The notes beneath the pieces are model-generated. The model saw nothing but the letters and a program-made list of their open reading frames with translations, was not told the DNA's origin and ran no database searches. A DNA stretch of 49,239 nt, taken from NCBI RefSeq assembly GCF_003697815.1, contig NZ_RDQG01000066.1, positions 1 to 49,239 on the forward strand. Direction: 5' to 3'. Positions 8,027 through 44,376 of the stretch are shown piece after piece (within the stretch, counting starts at the first letter, position 1; every line of letters starts with the position of its first letter). A program made the position numbers and the translations under genes. The DNA is from Halalkalicoccus subterraneus (GTDB lineage: Archaea > Halobacteriota > Halobacteria > Halobacteriales > Halalkalicoccaceae).

Positions 8027-8053
8027 TCATTTCCGGCCAGGTTCGGCCTAGTC

Positions 8054-8637: not shown

Positions 8638-8684
8638 CCCCGTCGGACGGTCCCCTTTATCTCCCCGCGGCGCGCGTCCCGCGT

Positions 8685-10222: not shown

Positions 10223-10276
10223 ACCGCTCTTTGAGGCTTGATCGTACAAAAACCGCCGTTTGCACTCCCGCGTTAT

Positions 10277-10292
10277 CGGGGTACTAACCCCG
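10277..10292. promoter_or_regulatory. 6-bp inverted repeat upstream of the 10338 gene
   Basis: CGGGGT-ACTA-ACCCCG is an exact dyad just upstream of a TATA-like box. It sits in the divergent spacer between nth and the exported protein gene. It could be an operator or activator site. Confidence 0.4.
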
Positions 10293-10309
10293 AACTAGTG
10301 GCAAAATAG

Positions 10310-10319
10310 TAATAAATAT
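10310..10319 (+). promoter_or_regulatory. TATA-like box for the 10338 gene
   Basis: TAATAAATAT about 24 nt before the ATG at 10338, in an otherwise GC-rich context. The spacing suits leaderless initiation. Confidence 0.5.
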
Positions 10320-10337
10320 TGGCGACCGACCTCCCGC

Positions 10338-10769: not shown

Positions 10770-10774
10770 TCGCC

Positions 10775-11188: not shown

Positions 11189-11213
11189 ACCTCCATTCCC
11201 CGCTCGGGGGCTT

Positions 11214-12023
11214 TCAGTCGAGCGGATCGTCGCCGTCCCGGTTCCAGGCCTCGCTCGCGAACTTCCCGTCGGCACGCTCGCGGGCGGCCGCCAGTTCGGC
11301 GTCGCTCCACGTCCCCTCCTCGGCGCCGGCCCACGCTCTCAGGGACTCCTCGAGCGCCTCGACGGCCCGCTCGCGACCGTCGACCCCCTGCTGTCGAAGG
11401 CTCGTCACACGCGCTTCGAACTCCTCGGGGGTCGTTTCGGGGTTCGCGAAGGCCGAGAGATGGCGCTCGGGCAGCGACTCGAAGGAGATCGAACCGTGCT
11501 GAATGATCGCGTCCTTCCGCCTGTACTGGGCGTTCCCGCTCAGCTTCTTCCCGCCCGCGACCACGTCGTGGGCCGGATGCAGTTCCCGCAGGTAGCAGGC
11601 CGGCTGGTGGATCTCCGGCTGAGATTCCTCGGCGAACCCCGCCTCGACGCCCAGTCGCTCGAAGGCGTCGAGGATCGGCTCGCAGAGCAGTTCGTACGTC
11701 TCCATTAGGTTCCCGGGCAACTCCGCCGCGGGCGCGACGATCGAGTAGGAGATGTCCCCCCACGAGTCGTGGTAGATCCCCCCGCCGCCGGTCGGCCGCC
11801 GCGTGACGGTGATTCCCTCCCGGTCGCAGAAGGTCCAGTCCACGGTCGCGGGATCCTGATGGTAGCCAAGCGAGAGCGTACTCGGTTCCCAGCGATACAC
11901 CCGCAGGGTTCTCGGGCCGCCTGCGGCGGCCGTGGCGGCCGCGACCTCGTCGAGCGCCATGTTGATCGTCCCCTCCTGGGACTCCTCGCGGACGAGCCGC
12001 CACTCCCGCTCCGTTCGCTCCAT
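11214..12023 (-). CDS. lplA: Lipoate-protein ligase A family protein
   Basis: A 269-residue member of the biotin/lipoyl ligase (BPL_LplA_LipB) family, which transfers lipoate or a related acyl group to lysines of carrier domains. Signatures are the substrate-binding RRPTGGGGIYHD near residues 75-86 and the catalytic lysine in VAGGKKLSGNAQ (Lys159/160). The C-terminal part (about 210-269) looks like the accessory domain. Haloarchaea use lipoylated 2-oxoacid dehydrogenase complexes and the glycine cleavage system, so a ligase is expected. The lipoyl acceptor genes are not in this window. Octanoyltransferase activity is an alternative that sequence alone cannot exclude. Confidence 0.87.
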   Translation of the reverse strand: MERTEREWRLVREESQEGTINMALDEVAAATAAAGGPRTLRVYRWEPSTLSLGYHQDPATVDWTFCDREGITVTRRPTGGGGIYHDSWGDISYSIVAPAAELPGNLMETYELLCEPILDAFERLGVEAGFAEESQPEIHQPACYLRELHPAHDVVAGGKKLSGNAQYRRKDAIIQHGSISFESLPERHLSAFANPETTPEEFEARVTSLRQQGVDGRERAVEALEESLRAWAGAEEGTWSDAELAAARERADGKFASEAWNRDGDDPLD

Positions 12024-12135
12024 ACGTTGACTACCGCCGACCGCCCCAAAGCGGTTCCGAACGACCCCGTTTCCGATATAATTTCCATACTAGAAATACC
12101 TGAAAGCATTTACCGGGGTCGGAGAATGGCGGGGT

Positions 12136-12924
12136 ATGGACAGACGAACGTTCCTCGCCACCGCCGGTGCGGGCTTCGGGCTCGCGACCGGTGCTGTCAG
12201 TGCCGCCCCCTCCTCCGATCGTCCACCGCTCAGGCTCTACTCGCCGGCCAGCCAGCTCGCCCCCGACGGGGGGCGGCTCGCGGATGACGGCGTCGTCGCC
12301 GCGTGGGCCGAACCGACCGCGTACAACTTCGCCGCCAGCCGGACTGACCCGACCGAGTACGGCGATCGGATCCCGTTGGTTTCCCTGGACGGACGTGTAG
12401 CCGGGATCGGTTCGATGCTGGTCGCCGACCCGGCAAAACAGGGCGGGGACGCGACCTACGCCGAGTCGAACGGGCGAGCGCTGCTCTCGCTGTGGGACAC
12501 GCTGGTCGTGGGCAAACGGATCTACTGGGACGGCTCCCACGACCAGTACTGGTCGCTCGACGCCTTCGGATCGTTCCGCGAACGTGCCGAGAAAGCGGGG
12601 TACGTGGTCGAACCGACGACCGCCGTCGATCGACTGACCCTCGCGAACGCGGACGGGCTCGTGATCACGACGCCGCCACGGGCGTTTGACTCCGGGGAAC
12701 TCGACGCGCTCGCGGCGTTCGTCGAGGGCGGCGGCGCGCTCTTCCTGCACGATCAGGCGAACTTCCGTGGGCTCGACGAGACCGACAACCTGAACGCGAT
12801 CGCCGAACGCCTCGATCTCTCCTTTCGGTTCAACGCCGACGAGGTCAACGACGACGAATCGAACGCCGGTGCGCCATTCGCGGTGTTGACGACGGTGTAC
12901 GACTCCGCCGTGTTCGGGGCCTGA
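12136..12924 (+). CDS. Tat-exported protein with DUF4350/GATase-like fold, possibly truncated
   Basis: 262 residues. The N-terminus MDRRTFLATAGAGFGLATG is a twin-arginine signal, with a probable cleavage site after AVSA. Most haloarchaeal exported proteins use Tat. The mature part contains a segment recalling DUF4350/ThuA-like glutamine-amidotransferase folds (NADGLVITTPPRAFDSGELD, then FVEGGGALFLHDQANF). The protein stops soon after VLTTVYDSAVFGA, where I would expect the related proteins to continue into another domain. Truncation is therefore possible, but I cannot align homologues here. The stop directly abuts the ubaA stop on the other strand with no spacer. Confidence 0.68.
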   Translation: MDRRTFLATAGAGFGLATGAVSAAPSSDRPPLRLYSPASQLAPDGGRLADDGVVAAWAEPTAYNFAASRTDPTEYGDRIPLVSLDGRVAGIGSMLVADPAKQGGDATYAESNGRALLSLWDTLVVGKRIYWDGSHDQYWSLDAFGSFRERAEKAGYVVEPTTAVDRLTLANADGLVITTPPRAFDSGELDALAAFVEGGGALFLHDQANFRGLDETDNLNAIAERLDLSFRFNADEVNDDESNAGAPFAVLTTVYDSAVFGA

Positions 12925-13758
12925 TCAGTCCGCGCTCACACGACAGCCCTCCGTGGCGTACTCGACGCTCTCGATGGAGTCGATGGGATCGTCGCCACAG
13001 ACGGGACAGTCGGAGTTCCGCCTTACGGGGACCTCCTCGAAGCTCATGTCGGCGGCGTCGTATGCGAGCAGCCGGCCTTCCAGGGGCTCGCCGAAATCGA
13101 GGACGAGCTTCATCGCCTCGGTCGCCTGGATGCAGCCGAGGGTGCCCGGGAGCACGCCGAGCACGCCCGTACTCGCACAGTCGGCCACCTCGTCCTCGGG
13201 CGGAGCCTCGGGGAACAGACACCGATAACAGGGTCCCCGATCCTTGCCCTCTCCGGCGGGGAACGTGATCGCCTGTCCTTCGAACTTGTAGATCGCGCCG
13301 TGGGAAAACGGCGTGTTCGAGAGGGTACAGGCGTCGTTGACGAGATACCTGGTTCGAAAGTTGTCCGACCCGTCGACGACCACGTCGTACTCGGAAATGA
13401 GGTCCTCGACGTTCTCGGGTTCCACCCGCATCTCGTGGGTTTCGACGGTGACGTCGGGGTTGAGCCGCTCGACGTATCTTCGGGCCGATTCGACCTTCGG
13501 CTCGCCGACGTCGGCGTCCCCGTGGACGATCTGGCGCTGGAGGTTCGAGCGCTCGACGCTATCGTCGTCGGCGATCCCGAGGGTACCGATCCCCGCCGCG
13601 GCCAGGTACTGGATGATCGGCGAACCCAGCCCGCCCGCGCCGATGACGAGCACGCGCGAGTCGAGCAGTTTCGCCTGACCCTCCGGTCCGATTTCGTCCA
13701 TGATGATGTGTCTGGAGTAGCGGTCGAGTTGGGTGGGATCGAGCGAGAGGTCCGCCAT
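12925..13758 (-). CDS. ubaA: E1-like ubiquitin/SAMP-activating enzyme (ThiF/MoeB family)
   Basis: 277 residues, the expected length of haloarchaeal UbaA. In Haloferax volcanii UbaA adenylates the C-terminus of ubiquitin-like SAMP proteins for protein conjugation, tRNA thiolation and molybdopterin synthesis. The nucleotide-binding GAGGLGS lies at 40-46. Zinc cysteines are Cys177/Cys180 (CYRC) and Cys251/Cys254 (CPVC). The candidate thioester cysteine is Cys194 in VADCASTGVLG. The ATG at 13758 (MADLSLDPTQLDRYSRH) matches the family start, and 27 upstream in-frame codons are rejected. A rhodanese and a decayed YeeE-type transporter lie immediately upstream, which fits a sulfur-handling neighbourhood. 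Confidence 0.92.
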   Translation of the reverse strand: MADLSLDPTQLDRYSRHIIMDEIGPEGQAKLLDSRVLVIGAGGLGSPIIQYLAAAGIGTLGIADDDSVERSNLQRQIVHGDADVGEPKVESARRYVERLNPDVTVETHEMRVEPENVEDLISEYDVVVDGSDNFRTRYLVNDACTLSNTPFSHGAIYKFEGQAITFPAGEGKDRGPCYRCLFPEAPPEDEVADCASTGVLGVLPGTLGCIQATEAMKLVLDFGEPLEGRLLAYDAADMSFEEVPVRRNSDCPVCGDDPIDSIESVEYATEGCRVSAD

Positions 13759-13839
13759 ACCGTTCCTAGGGCGGCGAGGGTGATAAAGCCGTAGCCGATC
13801 TCGAATCGGGTAGCCCCTGTCGGGGTCCCTGTAGGCCAT

Positions 13840-14128
13840 CTGTGTTGGTTCACGCAGGCCTTCACGGCGGTGATCGTCGGTGCCTTTCTCGCGGCGGTCT
13901 GGTGCGTCGCCTTCTCGATCCGCGTCCCCAAGCGAAAGCGCGTGCCGAACGCCGTCGGTATAGCGGCTTCATGATGGTCGCGGGCTCGCGGCTCGCCCCG
14001 GTTGCAACATCGGAAACATCTACTCGGGGCTCGCCGAACCCGTGATCCATTCCGTTATCGCCAGTATCGACATCGTCGCCGGCATCTACGCGACGACCCA
14101 CTGGATCTACCGTGACGTGGGTGTGTGA
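13840..14128 (+). pseudogene. Decayed YeeE/YedE (thiosulfate/sulfur transport) gene, C-terminal half
   Basis: Three plus-strand reading frames together spell the end of a YeeE/YedE transporter. In 13840-13958 I read VIVGAFLAAVW followed by SIRVPKRKRVPNAV. From 13959 the frame shifts to YSGFMMVAGSRLAP. From 14000 it shifts again to GCNIGNIYSGLAEPVIHS, ending WIYRDVGV with TGA at 14126-14128. The family hallmark is a short-loop GARLAxGCNxGxxxSG motif, here split by the second frameshift. The N-terminal part is missing, so the gene is dead. It lies between ubaA (divergent) and a rhodanese (same strand, 72 nt downstream). YeeE-rhodanese pairs are common in sulfur uptake loci. The family assignment is from motif memory, not an alignment. 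Confidence 0.68.
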
Positions 14129-14200
14129 TCTGACTGCACCTCCGAGACGAGACGTATCGTTCGATAAACGCATCAGACGCGACCGACACTATACGACACC

Positions 14201-14581
14201 ATGAGTGGACCATCGCTCGACGACTTCACGGACATGCCGGAGGACGTACCGGATCTCCCTCAAGCGACGATGATCGGGAAGATCGATCCCGGGGACGTCG
14301 AGGCCGAACGCGCCGATGAATCGGTCGACGTGATCGACGTCCGCGATCGCGACGCCTACGCCGAGGGTCACATTCCCGGTGCGGAGAACGTCCCGCTCGA
14401 CGAACTCGAAGACCTGGTCGAGGAGCGTGACTGGTCTGAGACGGTCGTTACCGCCTGTTATCTCGGCAAATCCTCGGTCCAGGCCGCTCGGCTGATCGAG
14501 GCCTACAGCGACGCCGAGGTCAAATCGATGGCCGGTGGCTACGAGGACTGGACGTACGACCTCGCGTCCGACGACTCGTAG
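14201..14581 (+). CDS. Rhodanese-like single-domain sulfurtransferase
   Basis: 126 residues forming one rhodanese domain. DVIDVRDRDAYAEGHIPGAE (about 43-62) is the classic CH2A-like region. The active-site loop CYLGKSS starts at Cys86, giving the C-x-x-G-x-x-S pattern of sulfurtransferases that carry a persulfide. The first 25 residues are an extension, MSGPSLDDFTDMPED. It follows a broken YeeE-type transporter gene on the same strand and faces ubaA across it. It may supply sulfur for UbaA-dependent thiolation, but this is inference from proximity. Confidence 0.88.
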   Translation: MSGPSLDDFTDMPEDVPDLPQATMIGKIDPGDVEAERADESVDVIDVRDRDAYAEGHIPGAENVPLDELEDLVEERDWSETVVTACYLGKSSVQAARLIEAYSDAEVKSMAGGYEDWTYDLASDDS

Positions 14582-14612
14582 CTCGCAGCGCGGCGAAAAA
14601 CCGTTCGACGTC

Positions 14613-15185
14613 CTAGCGGTCGCGACTCGGACGGGTGTGTTCGGTACCCTTGCCCTTCGTGCCGAGGCCGCGGTTCTGCTTGCCGGTGCTTGTCAGACCG
14701 CGCAGCGCGCGGTTCTCCTGGCTCGACCCGCAGATCCAGCTCAGGTCGTCGTCGTTCTCGATCACGGGGTGCTCGGGGTCGACGAGGATCACTTCGAACC
14801 ACTTCTGGGAGCCGTCCTGGCCCACCGAGTAGGAGTTGAGCACCCGCAGGTTGCGGTACGTCCGGGTCGCCCGTTCCTCGGCCACCCGTTGAAGGTTCTT
14901 GTTGCGCGTCACGCGGGTGACGCCCTGGCGCTTCGAGCGTCGCCCGGCCTTGTGGCGCTGCTTGCGGGCTGTGCCCTTGCGAATGCTGACGCGTGCGAGG
15001 ACGACGCCCTGTTTGGCCTTATAGCCCAGATCCCGCGCGCGGTCGAGGCGTGTGGGTCGCTCGATGCGCTCGATTGCGCCCTGTTCGCGCCACTCCTGTT
15101 TTCGCTGCCACTGGAGTTCGCCCAGTGCCCCCTCCTTGGGGTTCTTCCATGCGTCTCGGATGTGTGAGTAGAAGCTTCGTGCCAT
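14613..15185 (-). CDS. rpl15e: 50S ribosomal protein L15e
   Basis: A 190-residue archaeal/eukaryotic-specific large-subunit protein. It starts MARSFYSHIRDAWKNP and has the basic central region with ARVSIRKGTARKQRHKAGRR, followed by NLRVLNSYSVGQDGSQKWF, as in L15e. It is unusually basic for this proteome, as expected for an rRNA-binding protein. The only plausible promoter lies about 145 nt upstream, just beyond the trmB-family stop, so the mRNA would carry a leader of about 120 nt, long for a haloarchaeon. Upstream genes lie on the same strand, so read-through is also possible. Confidence 0.96.
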   Translation of the reverse strand: MARSFYSHIRDAWKNPKEGALGELQWQRKQEWREQGAIERIERPTRLDRARDLGYKAKQGVVLARVSIRKGTARKQRHKAGRRSKRQGVTRVTRNKNLQRVAEERATRTYRNLRVLNSYSVGQDGSQKWFEVILVDPEHPVIENDDDLSWICGSSQENRALRGLTSTGKQNRGLGTKGKGTEHTRPSRDR

Positions 15186-15326
15186 TGGGTATCACCACGG
15201 GCGTTGGGTGGTTCAGTCCGCGCGGCGTGTCGAGCCCCGTAGACCACATCCCTGCCTGCGACCCGACGGTTGCAGGTGCCTGCTGGTGCCCGTTTCCCAG
15301 CGTACACGGTTCTACCCCCGAATAAC

Positions 15327-15335
15327 GGTTAAGCC
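15327..15335 (-). promoter_or_regulatory. Candidate TATA box for rpl15e
   Basis: GGCTTAACC on the minus strand, immediately downstream of the regulator stop codon (15343). Transcription from it would start near 15300 and leave a leader of about 115-120 nt before the rpl15e ATG. No closer AT-rich element is visible. Confidence 0.4.
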
Positions 15336-15342
15336 CTTCGGA

Positions 15343-16098
15343 TTACTTGACAGTCGATTCGATCCAGCCGGTGAGGATCTCCACGAGAACGGTCGCAAAA
15401 CCGCTCGATTCGCTCCAGAAGGCCGCCTCGCGGTCGTCGCCGTCCCCGAGTACGCTCAACAGAACCGCCCGGTCGTCGACGACGACCAGTCTCGCAGCGC
15501 GCTCGTTGCGGAGGTTTTCGGGGGAGGCGTACACCGCCATCGCTCCGTCCTCGAACAGCGCCCGGACCGTTGAATCCTCGCTGACGATCGCGACCTCGAC
15601 CCCGCGCTCTTCGGCGTCCGAAAGCGCGTCTCTAAGGGACTCCGTAACTAGATCCGTCGAGTCGGCCCCGAAGACGACGCGGCTCTCGGCCGTCCTGACG
15701 AGATGCTCGATCCGGTCGGTGACGTGTTCCTCGCCGTCGACCGACCAGATGTCCTCCCGTTCCTCGCCACCCGGCTCCGAGCGTTCGCGGACCGATTCGA
15801 GATAGTCGAACGCCTGATCGCGCTCGCTTGCGAAGCGCTCGGCGAGGAGCTCTTCGGCCTCGTCGAGGCTCACCGGCCGGTACTGCATCGGCGTCGAGTG
15901 CTGGACCTCGATCAGCCCGCGCTCGGCGAGGTTCTCCGCGGCCCCGTAGACCTGCGAGCGTGGGATCTCCGAGACACGGTAGACGTCGCGCGCCGTTCCG
16001 GTCCCCAGTCTCTGCAAGGCAATGAATACTTTCGCCTCGTAGTTCGAGAGTCCGAGGCGTTCTAACGCGTCGACGGCTGCCGTTTCATCGGTCGTCAT
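15343..16098 (-). CDS. TrmB-family transcriptional regulator
   Basis: 251 residues. The N-terminal winged helix-turn-helix (about 10-75) reads LERLGLSNYEAKVFIALQRL, then SEIPRSQVYGAAENLAERGL, which is characteristic of TrmB regulators. A helical linker (75-110) leads to a C-terminal PLD-like effector-binding domain, with RVVFGADSTDLV and VVDDRAVLLSVL. It lacks the long sugar-binding domain seen in Thermococcus TrmB, so it belongs to the shorter form common in haloarchaea, whose ligands are mostly unknown. The ATG at 16098 is preferred over an upstream start at 16125. It lies 51 nt downstream of the methyltransferase gene, same strand. Confidence 0.88.
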   Translation of the reverse strand: MTTDETAAVDALERLGLSNYEAKVFIALQRLGTGTARDVYRVSEIPRSQVYGAAENLAERGLIEVQHSTPMQYRPVSLDEAEELLAERFASERDQAFDYLESVRERSEPGGEEREDIWSVDGEEHVTDRIEHLVRTAESRVVFGADSTDLVTESLRDALSDAEERGVEVAIVSEDSTVRALFEDGAMAVYASPENLRNERAARLVVVDDRAVLLSVLGDGDDREAAFWSESSGFATVLVEILTGWIESTVK

Positions 16099-16149
16099 AA
16101 CATCGCCCGTTTCGTGTAGGCACACGATGCCTATAGAAGGGCATTCCGA

Positions 16150-16764
16150 TTACGAACGCACGGCTCGCCCCCGGATGATCGGCGCTACCGGCGGGATCCC
16201 GACGGAGACGCGTTGGAGGGCTTCGACTTCGAGGTCGGGGTTCGAAACGAACCACTTGGGGGTGTCCCGGTCGAATCGACACCCGCCTGCGGCGTGTCGC
16301 CAACAGGGTGTCAGCCGTTCTTGGAACGTCGCCTGCCAGCCCTCCGCGCGGACGTGCTCGAGAAAGCGACACTCCGCACCGGGTTTCAGCACGCGAACGA
16401 TCTCCTCGACGCTCGCCTCGACGCTGTCGACGCTACAGAGCACCAGCGAGACGACGACCGCGTCGAAGGTCCCGTCGGGGTACGGCAACGACTCGGCGGT
16501 CCCGTCCTCGATCGAGATCGCACAGTCGAGCTCGGCGGCCCGATTCGCTGCCCGCGATCGCATGTGTGGATCGGGATCGACCGCGTCCAGTTCCAGCCCG
16601 CGATTACAGAGGTACGGAACGGTCGCGCCGGTCCCACAGCCGAGATCGAGCACGCGCCCGGAGAGGTCGGCCGCGAGCCACTCTCGATGCGGGCGGAATC
16701 GACTCTCTACAACCCTCGTCAGGGGGTCATACAACGCTGCAAACACCGGGTGAGCGTCATCCAT
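16150..16764 (-). CDS. SAM-dependent class I methyltransferase (UbiE/Methyltransf_11-like)
   Basis: A 204-residue Rossmann-fold methyltransferase. Motif I LDLGCGTGATVP is at 39-50, the acidic ribose-binding residue follows in LELDAVDPDPHM, motif II is near DGTFDAVVVSLVLCSV, and motif III-like sequence is VLKPGAECRFLEHVRAEG. The FLEH segment and the later TPCWRHAAGGCRFDRD resemble small-molecule methyltransferases such as thiol S-methyltransferase-like or UbiE-like enzymes. The substrate is not deducible. It lies in a same-strand series with the aldo/keto reductase (57 nt upstream) and the TrmB-family regulator (51 nt downstream). Confidence 0.88.
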   Translation of the reverse strand: MDDAHPVFAALYDPLTRVVESRFRPHREWLAADLSGRVLDLGCGTGATVPYLCNRGLELDAVDPDPHMRSRAANRAAELDCAISIEDGTAESLPYPDGTFDAVVVSLVLCSVDSVEASVEEIVRVLKPGAECRFLEHVRAEGWQATFQERLTPCWRHAAGGCRFDRDTPKWFVSNPDLEVEALQRVSVGIPPVAPIIRGRAVRS

Positions 16765-16821
16765 ATCTCGATTCGGTCCGGCAGGGTCTTTACTTCGATG
16801 ACGGGTGATTCACGTCTCGCG

Positions 16822-17631
16822 TCAGTTCCACGGCGCGTAGTCGCGGTCGATGATCCGGTGTTCCCGGTCGATGCCGTCGATCCGGGCGATCTCCTCCTCG
16901 GTCAGTTCGAGTTCCCGGGCCGCGAGGTTCTCTCGGATGTGGTCCTCGCTCGTCGAGCGCGGGACGACGGCGACGTTCTCCTTCGAGAGCAGCCACGCCA
17001 GCGCGATCTGTGCCTCCGTCGCCTCACGGACCTCGGAGATCGACCCGAGAACGGGATCATCGAAGACCTCGCCGCGTGCGATCGGGCAGTACGCGACCAG
17101 CCAGTGGTCGTGTTCGGCGGCGTATTCGCGTAGTTCCTCCTGCTGGAGGTACGGATGACACTCCACTTGATTCGCGAACAGCGGCGCATCGAGTATCTCG
17201 CGGGCCTCGTCGAGCTGCTCGGGCTCGAAGTTCGAGACGCCGACGTTGCGTATCTGTCCTTTCTCGCGAAGCTCGTCCAACGTGCCGAGGGTCGTCTCGG
17301 GGTCGTAACAACCCGCCGGCCAGTGGACGTATAGCAGGTCGACGTAGTCGGTCCGAAGCTTTTCGAGGCTCTCCTTGACGGAGCCGACGATGTCCGACCG
17401 TTCAGGACCGGGAACGTCGATGTGAACGGTTTTGGTCGCGAGAAACACGTCCTCGCGATCGATGTCGGCCCGCTCGATCCCCCGTCCGACGTACTCCTCG
17501 TTCTCGTAGACTTGGGCGGTATCGACGTGGCGATAGCCCGCGTTTAGAGCCGCCTCGACGCAATCGATCCACTGCTCGCGGTTCGTGTCCGAATAGGTCC
17601 CCAGACCGATCCGTGGTAGCTCCCCGGTCAT
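16822..17631 (-). CDS. Aldo/keto reductase
   Basis: 269 residues forming an NADPH-dependent (beta/alpha)8 oxidoreductase. All four catalytic residues are present: Asp37 (RHVDTAQVY), Tyr42, Lys67 (ATKT) and His103 (LLYVHWPAG). The cofactor region is near VVPRSTSEDHIRENL. It resembles 2,5-diketo-gluconate reductase-type AKRs, but the physiological carbonyl substrate is unknown. The ATG at 17631 (MTGELPRIGLGTY) is preferred; an in-frame start ten codons earlier (17661) adds sequence not typical of the family. It heads the AKR-methyltransferase-regulator series. Confidence 0.92.
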   Translation of the reverse strand: MTGELPRIGLGTYSDTNREQWIDCVEAALNAGYRHVDTAQVYENEEYVGRGIERADIDREDVFLATKTVHIDVPGPERSDIVGSVKESLEKLRTDYVDLLYVHWPAGCYDPETTLGTLDELREKGQIRNVGVSNFEPEQLDEAREILDAPLFANQVECHPYLQQEELREYAAEHDHWLVAYCPIARGEVFDDPVLGSISEVREATEAQIALAWLLSKENVAVVPRSTSEDHIRENLAARELELTEEEIARIDGIDREHRIIDRDYAPWN

Positions 17632-17995
17632 GTCCCAACGGTTCGGAGACGGTATAATCAAGCTACCGCCATCGAATCATCTCCAGAGGTTCGGAACTTG
17701 CCGGATCTACAAACAGATAATGATTAATATCAACGAAAACCAGGCCTATGGAAAGTGATGTTCGAATCATAGGACGAACATAAAATTGACGTGATAGAAT
17801 AAACGCATTATGATGTGAAAATAAGTCGGCGAGAAGAGCGCCGCCGCTACCCAGAAACTACTCTCAGAAAGTCGAATTACCGTTAGTCAGATGGTTTCAG
17901 GCAATGCAGGAACGTATCAATACAACTAACAACACTCGCCACTGTACTCGCCTCTGTCTAGGTGTAATGGAACGTCAGGTTGGACAGCGATATCC
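17632..17995. other. AT-rich intergenic region, no gene seen
   Basis: About 360 nt between the aldo/keto reductase and a membrane protein gene. The DNA is visibly AT-richer than the flanks, with several TATA-like runs (for example around 17725-17735, 17778-17786 and 17803-17815). Short open frames are present but none has a recognisable pattern. No perfect long repeat or tRNA was noticed. Confidence 0.5.
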
Positions 17996-18448
17996 TCATT
18001 CGGGTGTTCCCGCAGGTTCTAACTTAGAAGTTATATACGCAAGCGTTGCACTTACTCCGCCGACGATCACTGCGATAGCCCCGCCCAGCACTACTGCCCA
18101 CCCCAACCGGAAGAGCAGACTTGGTGGTCCGGCTGTGATACCAATCCCACCTAGATTGAGTCCGAGCCCAGCTCCGCACCCGTAACAGAGTCCAAGCGGC
18201 CGTCCGATGCTCTCCGTGTAGAGGGTGGCGCCAGTCGCAGTAATTACCAACATCGCTAGATAACCGTGCCACCATAGATACACATGAATATTATAATATA
18301 GAGACCTACCCAGTACTGTAGAGTTTTCCAGAACCAAGTAAAAGTACACCGCCGTGATAATGAAGGCGGTAAACATATATCCAATTGCATTGGGAACCCC
18401 GCTTTTGTTTCCCGTTCTTGACTCGCCTAATCCATCTGGAGTCGCCAT
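17996..18448 (-). CDS. Multi-pass membrane protein of unknown function with a CxxC motif
   Basis: 150 residues with a hydrophilic N-terminus (MATPDGLGESRTGNKSG). At least three hydrophobic helices follow, at about 21-43, 57-80 and 118-142, plus a Gly-rich re-entrant-looking stretch, LCYGCGAGLGLNLGGIGI. The CYGC pair could bind metal or form a disulfide. The ATG at 18448 is preferred over a TTG at 18472. Codon use is more AT-rich than in neighbouring genes (ATA, TTG and AGT codons are frequent), and both flanks are AT-rich spacers, suggesting acquisition by transfer. No family recognised. Confidence 0.65.
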   Translation of the reverse strand: MATPDGLGESRTGNKSGVPNAIGYMFTAFIITAVYFYLVLENSTVLGRSLYYNIHVYLWWHGYLAMLVITATGATLYTESIGRPLGLCYGCGAGLGLNLGGIGITAGPPSLLFRLGWAVVLGGAIAVIVGGVSATLAYITSKLEPAGTPE

Positions 18449-18817
18449 AGGATCTATTACTCCTACTCCCAATTGAATACTAGATCCATTCGATATTTCT
18501 AGTAAATGAAATAAATAAGCGGTCCGTGTATTGACCGACTACCTCTCGACTGTCTGTGCAAGCTCCGTGACGATGCTCCTGTCCGTAGCGTCGGCTGTTG
18601 TGGTCAGGGCTGGCTGAGCAAAGCCACAGCTCTCCGAGGGGCAGACTATTGGTCGAAGAGATTGCGACCGTGATTAACTCACGCTAATAACTTCAGTTAT
18701 TTGTCAGTTTGTAGGAATCCATTCTCCGAACTTCTGCTCGACCAGCGGTTTTATATCGTCCTATCTGATTCATCGTTCCTCGCGGGGCTTTTAGGGGCGT
18801 CGCTCCTACCGGCGTCA
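18449..18817. other. Intergenic region before rio2
   Basis: About 370 nt. The first part is AT-rich and probably holds the promoter of the membrane gene on the minus strand (TATTTCATTTACT-like sequence near 18500-18515). The middle (18540-18660) is GC-richer and looks like non-coding or decayed sequence; no intact frame or transposase signature is visible. The last 60 nt lead into rio2; a TTTTATAT stretch at about 18749-18756 may be a promoter, which would give a leader of some 35-40 nt. Confidence 0.4.
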
Positions 18818-19723
18818 ATGACACGGAACGTCGCGAGCGTCATGCAGGAGCTCGCAGCCGAGGATTTCCATCTGCTGTCCGGCGTCGAACACGGGATGCG
18901 GTTCAGCGAGTGGGTCGACCGGGAGAAGCTTCCCCGTTTTTCGGGTCTCTCCTCCGAAGAGGTCGACTTCCGGCTTGATCGCTGTCTGGATCGCAAGCTC
19001 GTCGAACGAAAGACCATCCAGTACGAAGGGATCCGTCTCCGGATGGACGGCTACGACGCACTCGCACTGCGCACCTTCTCCCAGCGAGGAACCATCGAGG
19101 GATTTGGGGTTCCCCTCGGGGTCGGAAAGGAAAGCGACGTCTTCGAGGTCCAGTCCTACCGTCCGATGGCCCTGAAGTTCCACCGCGAGGGGTATACGAA
19201 CTTCAGAGAGGTTCGCCGCGAACGCGATTACACGTCCGAAAAGGAGCACCTCTCGTGGTTCTACACCGCCCGAAAGGCCGCCGAACGCGAGTACGAGGCC
19301 CTCGAAGCGCTCTATCCCGACGTCTCGGTTCCGCGTCCCGAGGACCAGAACCGCCACGCGCTGATCATGGAGAAGATCGACGGGGTCGAACTCTCACGCA
19401 CGAGGCTGGATACCGAGCAGGTGCGCCCGATCCTCGACATGATCCTCCGAGAACTGACGACGGCCTACAAACTGGGATACGTCCACGCCGACATGAGCCA
19501 GTACAACGTCTTCGTCGCGGAGGACGGGATCACGATCTTCGACTGGCCACAAGTGGTCCCTGCCGACCACGAGAACGCAACGGAGTTCCTCGCGCGCGAC
19601 GTTCGCAACCTGTTCGGGTATTTCGAGCGCAAGTACCCGGGGCAAGTCCCCGAAATCGACGAGGACGAACTCGTCCGGACGGTTCGCGACGGGGAGTTCG
19701 AGCATCTCGCGGCTCTCGAATGA
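18818..19723 (+). CDS. rio2: RIO2-type atypical serine protein kinase/ATPase
   Basis: 301 residues. Rio2 acts in small-subunit ribosome maturation in archaea and eukaryotes. The N-terminal winged helix (about 1-90) contains LLSGVEHGMRFSEWV. The kinase domain has the ATP loop GVGKESDVFEV (101-111), Lys120 in MALKFHREG, catalytic HADMSQYN (223-230, with Asp225 and Asn230) and the metal-binding Asp242 in IFDWPQ. The flexible-loop segment TNFREVRRERDY is present. The ATG at 18818 begins MTRNVASVMQELAAED, matching the family start; the frame extends upstream without family features. It is flanked by AT-rich and decayed DNA but is itself a normal host gene by composition. Confidence 0.94.
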   Translation: MTRNVASVMQELAAEDFHLLSGVEHGMRFSEWVDREKLPRFSGLSSEEVDFRLDRCLDRKLVERKTIQYEGIRLRMDGYDALALRTFSQRGTIEGFGVPLGVGKESDVFEVQSYRPMALKFHREGYTNFREVRRERDYTSEKEHLSWFYTARKAAEREYEALEALYPDVSVPRPEDQNRHALIMEKIDGVELSRTRLDTEQVRPILDMILRELTTAYKLGYVHADMSQYNVFVAEDGITIFDWPQVVPADHENATEFLARDVRNLFGYFERKYPGQVPEIDEDELVRTVRDGEFEHLAALE

Positions 19724-19726
19724 ATT

Positions 19727-19855
19727 CTATTCGACGATATCGAAATCGATTTCACGAGTTCCTCGGGCCCGGTTCGTACGGATCCAGTCGGTCCATTCGT
19801 CGGCGATGAGGTGGGCCACCTCATGCGGACGTACAACACACGCAACTCCCGCCAC
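19727..19855 (-). CDS. Possible 42-residue ORF or C-terminal gene remnant
   Basis: A minus-strand GTG-initiated frame of 42 codons, containing EVAHLIADEWTDWIRTNRAR and ending REIDFDIVE. The composition (acidic, amphipathic, Trp-containing) looks protein-like rather than random. It stops 3 nt from the rio2 stop on the other strand. A stop codon lies two codons before the GTG, so it is either a genuine small protein or the tail of a decayed gene. No family recognised. Confidence 0.3.
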   Translation of the reverse strand: MAGVACVVRPHEVAHLIADEWTDWIRTNRARGTREIDFDIVE

Positions 19856-19969
19856 CGTCTCTCACTACATCTGTTCCGTCATCAAAAGCCCGTTCAAGGA
19901 AGTGAACGTGGTTTCGTTGCTGGTAGTCTCCCCGATCGGGCGAAGTATTATATCATATAAAAATCATTT

Positions 19970-20442
19970 TTGTATGTGAATCAGATATTCTCGAACCTTT
20001 TCGGATCCCCCTTTAACCTGTTTCACGTAGTGTTCTTAGTTCTCGTCGGTTACTGGGTTTTCCTTGACGCTACCGAGCGAGGGAGTAGCGTGAAATTCTG
20101 TGGGCAATCGGGTGTACTGTCCTTCAGCCCCTCGTTATCGGGTATCTGCTTTACCGAAGCCGGATCGGGGCAAGGACTGAACCCGCCGGAGTCAACGAGC
20201 GACTCGTCGGTACCTTCGTGATCAGCCATTTTCTCGCGGCGCAACTCTGGTTCGTCCTGCGGTTCGCTACTGTGATCGCGACTACTGTGTACTCACCTGT
20301 AGTCGAAGCACAGTATTACGTTGTTCTATTCATAGCAGGCGTGATTCCCGGATACTGGCTCGTCTGGAAGCGGGGATGGGCACGCGTCCGTGGGAATATC
20401 GGCTGGGCTCAGGAGTCAGAACGTACCGAGGCACAGTACTAG
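19970..20442 (+). pseudogene. Frameshifted multi-pass membrane protein gene
   Basis: The first part (TTG 19970 or GTG 19976 start) reads a hydrophobic helix and then FLDATERGSSVKF. The second part continues one frame over as WAIGCTVLQPLVIGYLLYRS and runs on through two or three more helices to RTEAQY with a stop at 20440-20442. The junction is AAATTCTGTGGGCAATC. Removing one TG from 20099-20102 restores KFWAIG. The lesion is therefore a 2-nt TG duplication, the type produced by slippage. The repaired protein would have about 155 residues and four helices. The pattern (D-A-x-x-R-G-x-S followed by FWA) is familiar from short haloarchaeal membrane proteins, but I cannot name the family. A sequencing error is the alternative explanation. 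Confidence 0.7.
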
Positions 20443-20582
20443 CGAATACAACCGCCACTATACTCACGATCCCTTCCAGACTAACTGGACGTTCAGATTG
20501 GTAGTGGTACAACGGCTGGATCAATGCAGACACGAGTTTTGGCGTTCGAAACTACTGCGATTCGGTCGGTCCGAGCCTTCGT

Positions 20583-21407
20583 CTACTCCCGGCAGTCGGG
20601 ATGGTCCGTCTCGGTGTTCCGTCCGAAGGCGGCGTCGCGAGCCGTCATCCACTCCGGATGTCTGACGAGAACACAGACGGGAATCGTCTCGATACCGAGT
20701 AACTGGGCGAGTGTCAGGCGATGGCGGCCGTCGACGTGGAGGAGTTGACCGTCACGCCCGACGTCCACGACGACCTCCTCGGTCCTGCTCTTCAAGAACT
20801 CCCTGTCCCCCCGATCGCGCTGAATCGACTCCTGGCTCCGGTAACCGTCCTGATGAAGGGTCTTATAGAGGCGTTCGTAGGCTGCACACCGTCGGGCGAT
20901 CTCCGCCCGCGAGCTCCAGCTGTGGGTGTCCTCCCCACGGTCGATCTCCCGGAGATGACGCCGTATCTTGTCGGTCTCCTCCCATGGAATGCCCTCGACG
21001 AAGCGCTGTTCGAGCATTTTGTAGGTGTCCGTCTCACTGACCAGCGTCGGCATCGGGTGGTCCGGATCCGGCCGGTCCCAGTCGCCGCCTCGAACCGATC
21101 CCAATCCCGCCTTCCGATCCGCCCAGGCGGGATGGGGTCGCATCGTGTTGTGGGTGATCAGGGCCGGGTCGACCCACTCGATCTTGAGCGGGTCTAGCGG
21201 CGCGTTATATCGAGCCGTCTCGAACGACCGACTCCGGCGGTAGTATCGCGGGGCGAGCCACCAGTAGAGATCGCTTGGAAGCCACCGGTAGCCGAACAGC
21301 GCTTTTTCGAGCGTCTTCCACGCGAGACGACGGATCCCGCCCACACGATAGGCTTCTCGCGTACGGAGGCTCAGATCGCGGGCCCTCGCTGGGAGCCATT
21401 CGCTCAT
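20583..21407 (-). CDS. ParB-N-like domain protein of unknown function
   Basis: 274 residues. The N-terminal half is basic and Trp/Tyr-rich (KALFGYRWLPSDLYWWLAPR) and may associate with a membrane or a partner. The C-terminal part (about 205-260) contains VVVDVGRDGQLLHVDGRHRL followed by ALAQLLGIETIPVCVLVRHP-type sequence, which resembles the ParB/sulfiredoxin nucleotide-binding fold (GRHR motif, then GxxxIPVxVxxRH). This type is common in haloarchaea next to glycosyltransferases and sugar-nucleotide enzymes, and its role is unknown. The ATG at 21407 overlaps the stop of the epimerase remnant (ATGA), so it was probably translated together with the intact ancestor of that gene. Confidence 0.75.
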   Translation of the reverse strand: MSEWLPARARDLSLRTREAYRVGGIRRLAWKTLEKALFGYRWLPSDLYWWLAPRYYRRSRSFETARYNAPLDPLKIEWVDPALITHNTMRPHPAWADRKAGLGSVRGGDWDRPDPDHPMPTLVSETDTYKMLEQRFVEGIPWEETDKIRRHLREIDRGEDTHSWSSRAEIARRCAAYERLYKTLHQDGYRSQESIQRDRGDREFLKSRTEEVVVDVGRDGQLLHVDGRHRLTLAQLLGIETIPVCVLVRHPEWMTARDAAFGRNTETDHPDCRE

Positions 21408-21724: not shown

Positions 21725-22813
21725 ATGAAAGTGCTCCATCTCCCGTATTTCGAGAGCAACGACTACCAGAACCGACTGCTCGAAAGCGTCGAGAAACAGG
21801 GTATCCCACTCCTAATCGGGGAGTCAATGGAGTACTTCCCGTTCGTCCGGAACTACCGCCGCGAGCGCTTCGACGTCCTTCACCTCCATTGGACTCACCC
21901 CTTTTTCGTCGTCCCCAGCTACTCCGAGTCACGGCTCGAAGGGGCGGTCCAGTTCCTCCGGTCGGCCCTGCGGGCTGTCGCGTTTCTCCTCGACGTTCTG
22001 GTGCTCAAACTCTTGGGAGTCGGCCTCGTCTGGACGGTCCACAACAAACACAACCACGAGCGCCATCACGTCCGCCTCGATCACGCCGTCAGCCGCGTCC
22101 TCTCCACGCTCGTCGACCGGATCACCGTCTCGTGTCCGAGCGCGAAGGAAACCGTCGTCGAGCTGTTTCGTGCCGATCCCGAGACGGTCCTGATCATCGA
22201 GGAGGGCAACTACATCGGCTCGTATCCGGACGAGATGAGTACCGCGGAGGCGCGCGAACGCCTCGGGATCGACCCGGAGACCTTCCTGTTCGTCTTCTTC
22301 GGACAGATCCGCCCGTACAAGGACGTACCGGGCCTGCTCGACGCCTTCGACGAACTCGATTTCTCTGCGAAACTGCTCGTCGCCGGGCGACCGAGCGACG
22401 ACGAACTGCGCGAGCGACTCGTCGAACGGCTCGCGACGATGCCCGACGCCGCGGGCGTCCTCGAGTTCGTCCCCGACGGGGAGATCCAGACGTACGTCAA
22501 CGCCGCGGACGTCCTCGTCCTTCCCTACCGGGAGATCATGACCTCCGGATCGGTGATGTTGGGGCTCTCGTTCGGCAAGCCGCTCGTTGCACCGCGATTG
22601 GGCTGTATTCCCGCGCTCGTCGGCGAGCAGGGGGCGTTTCTCTACTCCCCGACGGATTCCGATGGACTGCGCGACGCGATGACGGCCGCCTACGAGGCAC
22701 GCGAGGGTCTCGATGCAATGGAGGAACACAGCTACGAGCGGGCGGCAGAGTTCCCATGGGGACCCATCGGCGAACGAACCGCGGCCCTCTACCGGCAAGT
22801 GACATTGGGGTAG
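21725..22813 (+). CDS. GT4-type (GT-B fold) glycosyltransferase
   Basis: 362 residues. N-terminal acceptor domain: MKVLHLPYFESNDYQNRLLE, then FDVLHLHWTHPFFVVPS and LVWTVHNKHNHERHH. C-terminal nucleotide-sugar domain: FVFFGQIRPYKDVPGLLDAF, then VLVLPYREIMTSGSVMLGLS and FGKPLVAPRLGCIPALVGE, the region that binds the donor diphosphate and sugar. A hydrophobic stretch at about 80-103 could mediate membrane contact. It presumably adds a sugar to a lipid or surface glycan. The neighbours on the left (epimerase fragment, ParB-like protein) suggest a remnant of a glycosylation cluster. The start is supported by a TATA box 28 nt upstream. Confidence 0.88.
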   Translation: MKVLHLPYFESNDYQNRLLESVEKQGIPLLIGESMEYFPFVRNYRRERFDVLHLHWTHPFFVVPSYSESRLEGAVQFLRSALRAVAFLLDVLVLKLLGVGLVWTVHNKHNHERHHVRLDHAVSRVLSTLVDRITVSCPSAKETVVELFRADPETVLIIEEGNYIGSYPDEMSTAEARERLGIDPETFLFVFFGQIRPYKDVPGLLDAFDELDFSAKLLVAGRPSDDELRERLVERLATMPDAAGVLEFVPDGEIQTYVNAADVLVLPYREIMTSGSVMLGLSFGKPLVAPRLGCIPALVGEQGAFLYSPTDSDGLRDAMTAAYEAREGLDAMEEHSYERAAEFPWGPIGERTAALYRQVTLG

Positions 22814-40000: not shown

Positions 40001-41506
40001 CTAGAGATCGTACAGTTCGCCGTACTTCCCCTGTACGTAGTCGAGGAAGTAGTCGGCGGTGAAGGACTCGCCGGTGGCTTCCTCGATCAGTTCGGGCGTG
40101 GTGTAGCGCGCGCCGTGGCGGTGGACGTTCTCGACGAGCCAGTCGCGAAGCGGGTCGAACTCCCCCTGCCGGATCTTCCCGTCGAGGTCGTCGATGTCCT
40201 CGTCGGCGTTCGCGTACAGCTGGGCGGCCAGCACGCTCCCCAGCGAGTAGGTCGGGAAGTAGCCGAAGGAGCCGTGCGACCAGTGGATGTCTTGCAAGCA
40301 TCCCTCGGAATCGGTGTCGGGGCGCACCCCGAGGTACTCCTCCATCTTCTCGTTCCACGTCTCGGGGATCTCCTCGACCGAGAGGTCGCCCTCGATGAGC
40401 TCGCGCTCGATCTCGAACCGGAGGACGATGTGCATGTGGTAGGTTAGCTCGTCCGCCTCGACGCGAATGAGGTTGTCGTCGTGGACCTGATTGGCGGCCT
40501 CGTAGGCGTCCTCGACGGTCGCGTCGACATCGGGAAAGCGTTCCTCGACCTGCGGGAGGAATCGTTCCCAGAACGCCCACGAGCGCCCGACGTGGTTCTC
40601 CCAAAGCCGGGACTGGGACTCGTGGACGGTGAGGTCCCGCGAGTCGCCGAGCGGCGTGGCGTAGTGCTCGTCGGGCAATCCCAGCGTATAGGTCGCGTGG
40701 CCGAACTCGTGGATCGTGCTGGTGAGCCCTCCTAAGAGATCCGTCTCGTCGAAGCGCGTCGTCACGCGGGCGTCGAACTGGTTGCCCGTCGAGAAGGGAT
40801 GGGGTGCGGTGTCCAGCCGCCCACGATTCCAGTCGTATCCGAGGGTATCGAGCGCGTCCCGAGCCAGTGCTTCCTGTGTTTCGGGATCGAACTCGCCGGA
40901 GAAGGCGTCGACCGCGAGGTCGGCCTCCGAGTCAGCGACCGAATCGATCAGCGGGACGAGCTCCTCGCGCAGTCGCGTGAGCATCTCCTCGGCTTTCTCC
41001 AGCTCGATATACGGTTCGTAGTCCGCAAAGAGCACCGCGTAGGGGTCGGCGTCGGGGTCGATGTGTTCCGCGTACTCCTTTTTCAGTTCGATCAGCTCCT
41101 CCAGAACCGGCGCGAAGATCGAGAAGTCGTCCTCGGCTTTGGCCTCCTTCCATTTCGGGAGCGCTTCGGAGGTCGTCCGGGAGATCTCCTCGACCAGTTC
41201 GGTGGGTACGTGCGTCTTTCGCTCGTACTGGCGGCGGATCTCGCGAACGACTGCCGCCTGCTCGTCGTCGAGAGCCGTCGGTTCGAGGTCCGCGAGGTAC
41301 TCGCCCATCTCCTCGTCGGTGAACTCCTCGTGGATCACCGCCGACAAGGTCGAAAGCTGCTGGGAGCGGGCCTCGATCCCCTCGTCGGGCATCTTGACCT
41401 CCTGGTCCCACTGCAGGACGCCCGCGCCGGCGCCGAGGTTCTCGATGCGCCGTACTTTCTCGAGGAACTGCTCATAGGTATCGCCGTCCGTCGTGGACTG
41501 TGCCAT
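40001..41506 (-). CDS. M32 family metallocarboxypeptidase
   Basis: 501 residues, the normal length of Taq/Pfu carboxypeptidases, which remove C-terminal residues processively. The zinc motif is HEFGH at 266-270 in TIHEFGHATYTLG. The downstream glutamate ligand is probably in VHESQSRLWENHVGRS. Further family blocks are PHPFSTGNQFDARVTTRF and IHWSHGSFGYFPTYSLGSVL. The protein is mostly helical, with the N-terminal lid helices at about 1-80. It is cytoplasmic. It is a single gene, with the next upstream gene 51 nt away on the same strand. Confidence 0.95.
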   Translation of the reverse strand: MAQSTTDGDTYEQFLEKVRRIENLGAGAGVLQWDQEVKMPDEGIEARSQQLSTLSAVIHEEFTDEEMGEYLADLEPTALDDEQAAVVREIRRQYERKTHVPTELVEEISRTTSEALPKWKEAKAEDDFSIFAPVLEELIELKKEYAEHIDPDADPYAVLFADYEPYIELEKAEEMLTRLREELVPLIDSVADSEADLAVDAFSGEFDPETQEALARDALDTLGYDWNRGRLDTAPHPFSTGNQFDARVTTRFDETDLLGGLTSTIHEFGHATYTLGLPDEHYATPLGDSRDLTVHESQSRLWENHVGRSWAFWERFLPQVEERFPDVDATVEDAYEAANQVHDDNLIRVEADELTYHMHIVLRFEIERELIEGDLSVEEIPETWNEKMEEYLGVRPDTDSEGCLQDIHWSHGSFGYFPTYSLGSVLAAQLYANADEDIDDLDGKIRQGEFDPLRDWLVENVHRHGARYTTPELIEEATGESFTADYFLDYVQGKYGELYDL

Positions 41507-41557: not shown

Positions 41558-43234
41558 TCAGCCGGTGACGACGGCTAGGCCGTCGGTGTCGTTTCCGTCC
41601 GCGGAGCCGTTATCGGTGTCGTCCGACTGGTTTTCCGTCGCGTTCTCTCCCTCGTCGTCGGTGTCGTTCGGCTCGCCGAACGACGGCTGCGAATCGGTGT
41701 CGTCCGTGTCGGTCACGTCGGATCCGTTCTCGCTCCCACCGCTTTCGTCTCCAACGTCGTCCCCGTCTTGGCCGTCGCTCTCGTTGCCGCTCTCATTTCC
41801 CGTCCCACCGGCGTCTTGGCCGTCGTTTTCGCTTTCGTTGCTGTCGCCCTCACCGTCGGCCCCGGTGACGCCCTCGCCCCCGGAGCCATTTTCATTTCCC
41901 GAACCGGCCTCGGTGTCGTTCTCGTCGCCGGCCGACGGATCGTCGCTTTCCTCGGTTTCGTTGGTTTCGGTGTCGGGAGCGACTTCGCCCGTATCGCTCT
42001 CGTCGTCGCCGTCGCTCACGCCGCTGCTCTCATTTCCCGCCTCACCGTCGCCTGCTCCGTTGTTTTGGTCGGAATCGTTCTGGACGCTATCCATGTCGTC
42101 ACTGTTATTGTCTGTCTCGTTGCCCTCAATAGGTTCGTTAGTATTGCTACCGTTATCTCCCGAACCACTCTCCCCATTGCTAGATCCTTCATTTTCGCCA
42201 GAATTGTCATAGGATTCTGTAAGCACTTCTTCACTGGCCGCGTTTTCAACGGTGATTGTGTCTTGTTCTTCGTCCCATACTGGTCTTTCACTATTCCAGT
42301 ACACCGTCTCTGAACTATCTTCTCCTTCTCCCGTCACAAGACGAATACTTTCTCCTGGTTCAAGTATCGTTTCTGAGAATGTATATGGATCTATAGAAAC
42401 GCCATTCCCCTCATCCACAGACCATCCTGTTAAATCAAGTGCCTGATTACCTGTGTTTTCAAATTCGACCCATTCATTTTGGGTATTTGCATCTCCTTGA
42501 TCAACATTTCTACCCGACACAGAGAGTTCTCCACCTTCCTGACCAGTCGTATCGACATTTTCGTCTTCCCCTCCTGTGGTTTCCTCATCTTCTACGTCGT
42601 TACTACTATCGTCTGTATCGCCTGTTTCCGGACTATCTTGGTCCTCCTCATCACCGCTGTCACCGCCGTCGAAGATCGGCAGGCCGCCGTCGTTCTCGTC
42701 CTCTTCGTCGCTCGCATCGCCCTCGTCGGCGTCGGTATCGCCGTCGTCGTCGGGCGCGTCCTGTCCGTCGTCGGTGCCCTCGTCGGCACTCCCACCCGTA
42801 TCGCTGCTATCCTCGCCGTCTCCCTCGTCACCGGCGTCGCTGCTGTCGCTCCCGTCGGCGTCGGTATCATCGCTGTCGTCCGGCGGGTCGGTGGTGTCAT
42901 CGCCCGCGTCGTCGCTCGCGTCATTCGTGTCTCTCTCGGTAGCGTTGTCCCCGCCGCTGGCGGTGTCGTTCCCGCCGGCGTCACCGGCCCCTCCGTCGGT
43001 GTCGTTGTCCGTGAGGCCGGGCGGCGAGTCGCCGCCCCCGCCGGGGCTGTCGGTACCGAACGCACCGAGATCCAGCGCTGGGAGCCCGACCGTCGCGATG
43101 ATGCCGATCGCGAACAGCGCGATGCCGGCGACCAGCAACACCTGTTGAGGGCGTCTCCAGTCGGCAGTGTCGGTCTCTTCGGTCTCGGGACGCTGTTTCG
43201 GCCGCGGCGGGCCGGGGGACTGAGAGCGACTCAC
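41558..43234 (-). CDS. Membrane-anchored acidic low-complexity protein with a lamin-tail domain
   Basis: About 558 residues. A basic cytosolic tail (MSRSQSPGPPRPKQRPETEE) leads to one hydrophobic helix (about 30-55, VLLVAGIALFAIGIIATVGL). An extracellular stalk follows, made almost only of Asp, Gly, Glu, Asn, Ser and Thr. A globular lamin-tail-like domain lies at about 233-343 (EWVEFENTGNQALDLTGWSV is its hallmark strand pair), followed by a second low-complexity stalk to the end. Haloarchaeal lamin-tail domains occur in exported nucleases and surface proteins. The DNA for this domain (about 42100-42650) is visibly AT-richer than the stalk DNA. The start is GTG: 43234 is chosen because a TATA-like ATATTTGC lies about 30 nt upstream; GTG 43243 is the alternative. 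Confidence 0.72.
   Translation of the reverse strand: MSRSQSPGPPRPKQRPETEETDTADWRRPQQVLLVAGIALFAIGIIATVGLPALDLGAFGTDSPGGGGDSPPGLTDNDTDGGAGDAGGNDTASGGDNATERDTNDASDDAGDDTTDPPDDSDDTDADGSDSSDAGDEGDGEDSSDTGGSADEGTDDGQDAPDDDGDTDADEGDASDEEDENDGGLPIFDGGDSGDEEDQDSPETGDTDDSSNDVEDEETTGGEDENVDTTGQEGGELSVSGRNVDQGDANTQNEWVEFENTGNQALDLTGWSVDEGNGVSIDPYTFSETILEPGESIRLVTGEGEDSSETVYWNSERPVWDEEQDTITVENAASEEVLTESYDNSGENEGSSNGESGSGDNGSNTNEPIEGNETDNNSDDMDSVQNDSDQNNGAGDGEAGNESSGVSDGDDESDTGEVAPDTETNETEESDDPSAGDENDTEAGSGNENGSGGEGVTGADGEGDSNESENDGQDAGGTGNESGNESDGQDGDDVGDESGGSENGSDVTDTDDTDSQPSFGEPNDTDDEGENATENQSDDTDNGSADGNDTDGLAVVTG
42105..42650 (-). other. AT-rich segment inside the low-complexity gene (lamin-tail domain)
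   Basis: Hand counts of single 60-nt lines give 25/60 G+C at 42361-42420 and 22/60 at 42421-42480, against 40/60 at 42841-42900 in the flanking stalk. Codons such as ATA, AGT, CCA and GAA replace the GC-ending codons used elsewhere. The reading frame is intact across both junctions. The boundaries given are approximate. Confidence 0.65.
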
Positions 43235-43299
43235 GTCACCCACCGATTACGTGCCGACGTGCAAATATCTGTCTCTCCGCCGTCATAACTATCAACGAG

Positions 43300-44376
43300 C
43301 TATACGAACCGCGCCGACTCGCGATACAGGTGGTAACACCGGTCCAGCACCGTGAGCGCGACGCTCTCGTCTTTCGTATGGGCTTCACCCGGTTCGGAGG
43401 CGCCACAGACCACGCAGGCGGTCCCCGCTTCCGCGAGCCAGCCCGCGTCCGTCGCGTGGGGTTTCGAGACGAGTTCGGGAATCCCCTCTTGAGTCGCCCG
43501 AGCGGCCTCAAGCACCCGCTTTGCGAATCCATCGTCCGAGCAGGCCATCGCCGGGAGGTCCTGGTCGATCGTCCACTCGACGCCCTCCAGCTCCGTCACC
43601 CGTTCTATGGGCGCGCGCTCGCCCGGGACGGTGCGCTCGTCGACCGTCACCGTACAGCGATCCGGGATCACGTTCATCGCCGACCCGCCCTCGATCTCGG
43701 TGACCGCAACCGATCCCGAGAGGTGGTTTCCGAGCACCGTGGCCTCGGGTGCGTCGATTCCCTTCACCACGTCGACGGCCTCGCAGGCCCGGTAGATCGC
43801 GTTCTCGCCCGCCTCGGGTTCGCTCGCGTGGCTCGCCGCACCGCGGGCGGTGATCGTACTGCCCCGACGGCCCTTGTGGGCGACCACCACGTCGGTCACG
43901 CCCGGTTTCGAGTAGTTCGTCGAGCCCTCACAGACGATCGCGTATTCGGGCGCGAACCCGTTCTCGATGGCGTGTCGCGCACCGATCCCCCCGCTTTCCT
44001 CGCCGACGAAGCTGACGAAGACGAGTTTGCCCGTCGGCTCCGCGGTGCGGAAGGCACACATCGCCGCGGCCACTGCCCCTTTCATGTCGGCAGTCCCGCG
44101 GCCGTAGAGGCGCCCGTCGCGCTCCTCGACGACGTATTCGCCGCTTTCGATCTGGGATTCGGCGGGCGGCACCACGTCGTGGTGGCCCACGAGCGCGAGC
44201 GTCGGACCCTGCTTCGATCCTCTTCGAGCGAAGACGTTTCCCGCCTCGTCGCGGGTCACCTCGCCGTCGGTCTCCTCGCGCAGCCAGTCCTCGATGAAAT
44301 CGCCCGCGGCGGTTTCATCGACATGGCTCGGGATCGAAACCAGATCTCGCGTGAGGTCGCGAACGTCGTCAGTCAT
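43300..44376 (-). CDS. M20 family metallopeptidase (DapE/ArgE-like)
   Basis: 358 residues. Metal and catalytic motifs are LVGHHDVVPPAES (His and Asp), LYGRGTADMKGAVAA (bridging Asp), VSFVGEESGGIGARH (catalytic Glu and ligand Glu) and a C-terminal His in GASEPGEAHTKDES. The dimerisation domain lies at about 165-270. It belongs to the succinyl-diaminopimelate desuccinylase/acetylornithine deacetylase group, but archaea without peptidoglycan need not make diaminopimelate. A LysW- or N-acyl-amino-acid substrate is an alternative. The ATG at 44376 starts MTDDVRDLTRDLVSIPSH, as in the family. Confidence 0.9.
   Translation of the reverse strand: MTDDVRDLTRDLVSIPSHVDETAAGDFIEDWLREETDGEVTRDEAGNVFARRGSKQGPTLALVGHHDVVPPAESQIESGEYVVEERDGRLYGRGTADMKGAVAAAMCAFRTAEPTGKLVFVSFVGEESGGIGARHAIENGFAPEYAIVCEGSTNYSKPGVTDVVVAHKGRRGSTITARGAASHASEPEAGENAIYRACEAVDVVKGIDAPEATVLGNHLSGSVAVTEIEGGSAMNVIPDRCTVTVDERTVPGERAPIERVTELEGVEWTIDQDLPAMACSDDGFAKRVLEAARATQEGIPELVSKPHATDAGWLAEAGTACVVCGASEPGEAHTKDESVALTVLDRCYHLYRESARFV

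Follow-up and report, generated by a model that had tools for sequence, protein, structure and literature searches.

The minus-strand gene examined here, from Halalkalicoccus subterraneus, raises the question of how AT-rich DNA coding for a lamin tail domain (LTD) came to be lodged in the middle of a GC-rich reading frame for an acidic, low-complexity chain. The window analysed is the whole stretch of 49,239 nucleotides of contig NZ_RDQG01000066.1 (assembly GCF_003697815.1), and the features marked in it are collected in Table 1. The gene product, called here the stalk protein, features a short basic N-terminus and a single hydrophobic anchor, followed by a long acidic chain in which Asp, Glu, Gly, Ser, Thr and Asn abound; the membrane topology of the anchor region is predicted. 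One lysine only is found in the whole protein, and lies outside the AT-rich cassette; the latter includes three arginines and no lysine, versus many Asp and Glu residues. The stalk gene is flanked by two genes conserved across the family, whose products we take to be an M32-type carboxypeptidase and an M20-type peptidase.

Table 1. Features of the stalk gene and its neighbours (positions are those of the window; GC3, third-position GC)
Feature	Position	Strand	Basis or remark
Stalk gene, 561 aa	41558–43243	minus	open reading frame, GTG start
Order along the stalk gene: anchor, acidic stalk, LTD cassette, acidic stalk	41558–43243	minus	
N-terminal basic tail and membrane anchor (predicted), aa 1–75	43019–43243	minus	conserved within the genus
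Native N-side acidic stalk, GC3 0.70–0.95	42641–43018	minus	GC3 table, alignment
AT-rich block, aa 202–372: acidic linker, LTD, acidic linker	42128–42640	minus	change-point fit
Lamin tail domain (PF00932), aa 247–345	42209–42508	minus	Pfam and predicted fold
Native C-side acidic stalk with many N-glycosylation sequons, C-terminus resembling that of G001	41558–42127	minus	GC3, alignment, sequon count
M32-type carboxypeptidase (presumed), downstream neighbour	40001–41506	minus	conserved locus marker
M20-type peptidase (presumed), upstream neighbour	43300–44376	minus	conserved locus marker

In 120-bp windows, the GC content is 0.39–0.50 over positions ~42060–42659 and 0.58–0.76 on either side, standing at ~0.67 before the drop. 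The block in Table 1 is delimited by two change points, fitted by maximum likelihood to GC3 with a log-likelihood gain of 62. GC3 is 0.31 within the block, versus 0.80 in the rest of the gene, and drops to 0.24 in the lowest run of 80 codons. The block is wider than the LTD, since its edges fall outside the domain, in the acidic linkers (GC3 0.32 and 0.35 in the two linkers, 0.30 in the LTD). Synonymous codon choice for Asp, Glu, Gly and Asn significantly differs between block and stalks. Asp is encoded by GAC and GAT in a ratio of 73:15 in the stalks versus 6:12 in the block (Fisher p 6e-5), Glu by GAG and GAA in a ratio of 27:11 versus 4:25 (p 5e-6). Amino-acid composition is therefore not the source of the AT-richness, because the codons of shared residues also shift. 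A first-pass annotation of the sequence had reported an AT-rich LTD inside one GC-rich frame, with a concomitant change in codon choice, at 42105–42650. Window GC, change-point fit and codon counts all confirm this description, and its limits lie within 25 bases of the fitted ones. Its hand-counted G+C of 37–42% was right as to AT-richness, but the value measured for the whole block is slightly higher (44.4%).

The genome background was drawn from a 423-kb sample, in which ORFs were called mechanically, some being spurious. Equally AT-rich windows of 513 bp make up 0.75% of this DNA. The lowest GC3 found in an ORF of the sample is 0.36, and none is at or below 0.35. The GC3 contrast within the stalk gene ranks second among 180 ORFs of at least 300 codons; the translation of the top-ranking ORF is rich in Arg, Gly and Pro, as is typical of spurious frames.

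The LTD matches PF00932 with 56.5 bits and an E-value of 4e-15 (curated cut-off 34.3), and is the sole Pfam family in the stalk protein, with no enzyme domain alongside; an NCBIfam search of the stalk gave no credible match. The AlphaFold2 model of the LTD, obtained from a 37-row alignment, has a mean pLDDT of 78, with 52 residues above 90, and Foldseek gave 16 matches at E 0.001 or better, each of them to a lamin Ig domain. In the model, the captured LTD looks intact, with a predicted Ig-like lamin fold.

The locus was compared in relatives of the same genus (G001, G002, G003, G005 and G006) and of the sister genus (G007, G008 and G009), each species being represented by one genome; Halalkalicoccus G004 was left out, as its contig stops past the M20 gene. 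The M20–M32 interval carries a stalk gene of 404–578 codons in all five congeners and in G007. In G008 and G009 the start of the stalk gene adjoins the M20 gene, and the frame is open at the contig end, the M32 side being off the contig. The anchor region (aa 1–75) is 49–81% identical to that of the five genus orthologues. Native stalk sequences are recognizable in the alignment on both sides of the block, and the motif GGLPIFDGG, which ends the N-side stalk, is found also in genus orthologues. Sister-genus anchors gave weak or no matches by search, and what they have in common with the present one is limited to a W-[KR]-x-PQ-like motif and the layout; orthology in the sister genus rests on position and layout. 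Outside the family, no stalk gene was found beside the M20 gene in the 49 loci scanned, out of 80 M20 loci listed, and the gene thus looks family-specific.

The corresponding Halalkalicoccaceae genes share with the present one the position, the anchor region and an acidic low-complexity stalk, but lack both the LTD and the AT-rich block. No LTD was found in any of the eight stalk genes, the contig-cut genes of G008 and G009 included. Seven of the eight proteins contain no Pfam family, and that of G008 has a weak Big_1/MG4 match. None of these genes features a comparable AT-rich block, the lowest 80-codon GC3 being 0.60–0.75. The same head with the same AT-rich composition across the genus had been named at the outset as the mark of long vertical inheritance; the orthologues present the opposite picture. 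The LTD-less orthologues and their GC3 support the proposal of a foreign domain captured by the stalk gene.

Very probably, then, a headless stalk gene gained a foreign segment of ~513 bp, consisting of the LTD together with the acidic linkers belonging to it; the donor would be an unsampled halophile with AT-rich codons, and the gain was probably stable. The starting state would have been a headless, membrane-anchored acidic stalk protein of the kind ordinary in Halalkalicoccaceae. One in-frame recombination, probably requiring little homology, would have brought in the LTD with its linkers. Both joints lie in acidic, disordered parts of the chain, which should accept nearly any junction that keeps the frame, and the capture may for this reason have been easily tolerated. 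Addition of the segment and replacement of native stalk are not separable, because stalk length varies among relatives. The LTD would serve as a binding module held outside the cell by the stalk, and was probably acquired as a stable gain rather than as part of a switching system. For LTDs of halophile proteins, DNA binding (PMC4486849) and membrane association (PMC5118699) have been proposed. Charge-based DNA binding is doubtful here because of the scarcity of basic residues and the abundance of acidic ones in the cassette, and a protein or glycan would be as likely a partner as DNA. Capture of a domain by an archaeal protein of predicted surface location is thus well supported. It is ordinary in kind and reveals no new mechanism, yet before and after are unusually clear: headless relatives represent the state before, and the codon step marks the edges of the block. 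The location of these edges in acidic linkers suggests that low-complexity acidic chains ease such captures.

LTDs are common in haloarchaea. Matches at E 1e-12 were found in 240 of 391 genomes, and LTDs reside also at other loci within the genus. GC3 measures 0.51–0.98 in 39 distinct other haloarchaeal LTDs, picked by similarity to the query LTD, and is mostly near the value of the same ORF upstream of the domain; AT-richness is therefore not inherent to the domain. In 35 of the 39 the LTD ends no more than 20 codons from the protein end, and in four of the best-matching C-terminal copies scanned (L063, L065, L070 and L196) it is preceded by a metallo-beta-lactamase domain, as has been described for ComA-like proteins of haloarchaea (PMC5118699). 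Haloarchaeal surface proteins of this type, and of the thermonuclease type (e.g. Hvo_1477), carry the same Pfam domain, 39–48% identical to the present one, and are likewise predicted to be secreted or located at the surface (PMC5118699). In these proteins the LTD is terminal, follows an enzyme domain, and mostly has a GC3 close to that of its gene. In contrast, the present LTD is set in mid-stalk, no enzyme accompanies it, and codon use changes between it and the rest of the gene.

The closest LTD is ~48% identical (maximum over the alignment rows), and no closer relative was found in three further haloarchaeal families. In the tree, the present LTD forms a long branch beside C-terminal haloarchaeal LTDs, outside the group with the LTDs of its own family, a position made unsure by the length of the branch. 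Viral and plasmid sources were considered and discarded. Phage records gave no matches. Viral contigs gave none with a single query, and two GC-rich relatives, 27–45% identical, with an LTD profile. Plasmid records matched in 119 cases, all below 60% identity and, among the matches listed, at most 45%. No donor of the LTD block was found in the haloarchaeal, phage, viral-contig and plasmid searches. The single lysine of the protein, located outside the cassette, points to a further salt-in halophile, of AT-rich codon usage, as the probable donor.

The distribution of LTDs in haloarchaea, and at other loci of the genus, could also be taken to mean that the stalk gene had the domain ancestrally and that other lineages have lost it, with local mutation or selection accounting for the AT-rich codons. 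We regard this as very improbable, as it requires several independent losses over two genera, leaves the sharp codon step, which includes the linkers, unexplained, and disagrees with the tree, which sets the present LTD apart from the other LTDs of the family.

It had also been suggested that the head is exchanged by recombination between flanking repeats, making the stalk protein a variable surface protein of phase- or antigen-like type. Short acidic-codon repeats are present in the stalks, but do not exceed chance between the two: the longest exact word common to the 5' and 3' stalks is 14 nt, versus a mean of 12.7 in codon shuffles (p 0.25). The repetitive look thus corresponds to amino-acid composition, and not to a special DNA homology, because shared words match those of codon shuffles. 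No 12-mers are common to the cassette and either stalk, the longest shared word measuring 8–9 nt. One full copy of the cassette was found in the genome (assembly ~95% complete), the other DNA matches being 15–33 nt long. Neither exchange between repeats nor phase- or antigen-like variation is supported by these data. In favour of repeated swapping are a different head, Big_1/MG4-like, found in the G008 stalk beside the same M20 gene and in G004 at another locus, and the domain make-up of surface proteins in another haloarchaeon, which varies within a population (PMC4535781). Against it, besides the single cassette copy and the shared words, most orthologues are plainly headless, and the other heads match their own genes in codon use. 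Swapping through the stalk repeats is accordingly held to be very unlikely.

The Big_1/MG4-like heads of G008 (L059:2422–2676) and G004 (L201:1537–1797) share 61 of 85 residues, and the stalk genes that carry them occupy different loci and belong to different genera; in the G004 gene the stop codon is at the very contig end, and the real end may lie elsewhere. GC3 in these heads is 0.80–0.87, as in their own genes, and they therefore did not arrive recently from AT-rich DNA. One distant match (38%) to this head was found among 391 haloarchaea, a set apparently without G004 and G008. It lies in the same genome as the window (L205, on contig C25 of G000, minus strand, 952–2283), in what looks like a lipoprotein whose acidic stalk leads into Ig-like repeats; the repeat 38% identical to the G008 head is the first one. 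The G008 and G004 heads thus indicate an occasional gain of heads on an evolutionary time scale. Tentatively, and with more doubt than confidence, the acidic stalks of Halalkalicoccaceae might be viewed as landing platforms for small Ig-fold heads (LTD, Big_1/MG4-like) moving between genes and genera, by virtue of a disordered chain that tolerates junctions. If so, this would be one way for an archaeon to obtain new binding specificities at its surface. In the cell-wall island of Haloquadratum walsbyi, as here, the domain make-up of surface proteins varies between relatives, and amino-acid repeats are present (PMC4535781). There, the variation occurs within one population and has been attributed to homologous recombination and mobile elements (PMC4535781), while here it is seen across species and genera.

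That the assembler spliced into the stalk gene a piece of AT-rich LTD sequence belonging elsewhere is the least likely account, and highly improbable, since, although the assembly is a draft of 101 contigs and low-complexity sequences can mislead assemblers, two false joins would be needed, both in frame within one gene and with native stalk on both flanks, the words shared by cassette and stalks are very short, and the contamination estimate is 0.35%.

N-glycosylation sequons occur in the stalks of five of the six genus members (loci L053, L054, L055 and L057 included) ~2–3.6 times as often as in shuffles of the same sequence. In the stalk at 41558–43018 they number 20, versus 8.2 in shuffles. 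No such excess was found in the G006 stalk or in sister-genus stalks. Elsewhere in the window, a stretch of lower GC (0.53–0.58) spans positions 17001–21000, and a gene which by its look is a candidate glycosyltransferase lies close to it, at 21725–22813. A run of many ORFs with GC3 0.42–0.55, possibly an integrated element, was observed in another contig of the same genome (L105, contig C15 of G000, 1–20000).
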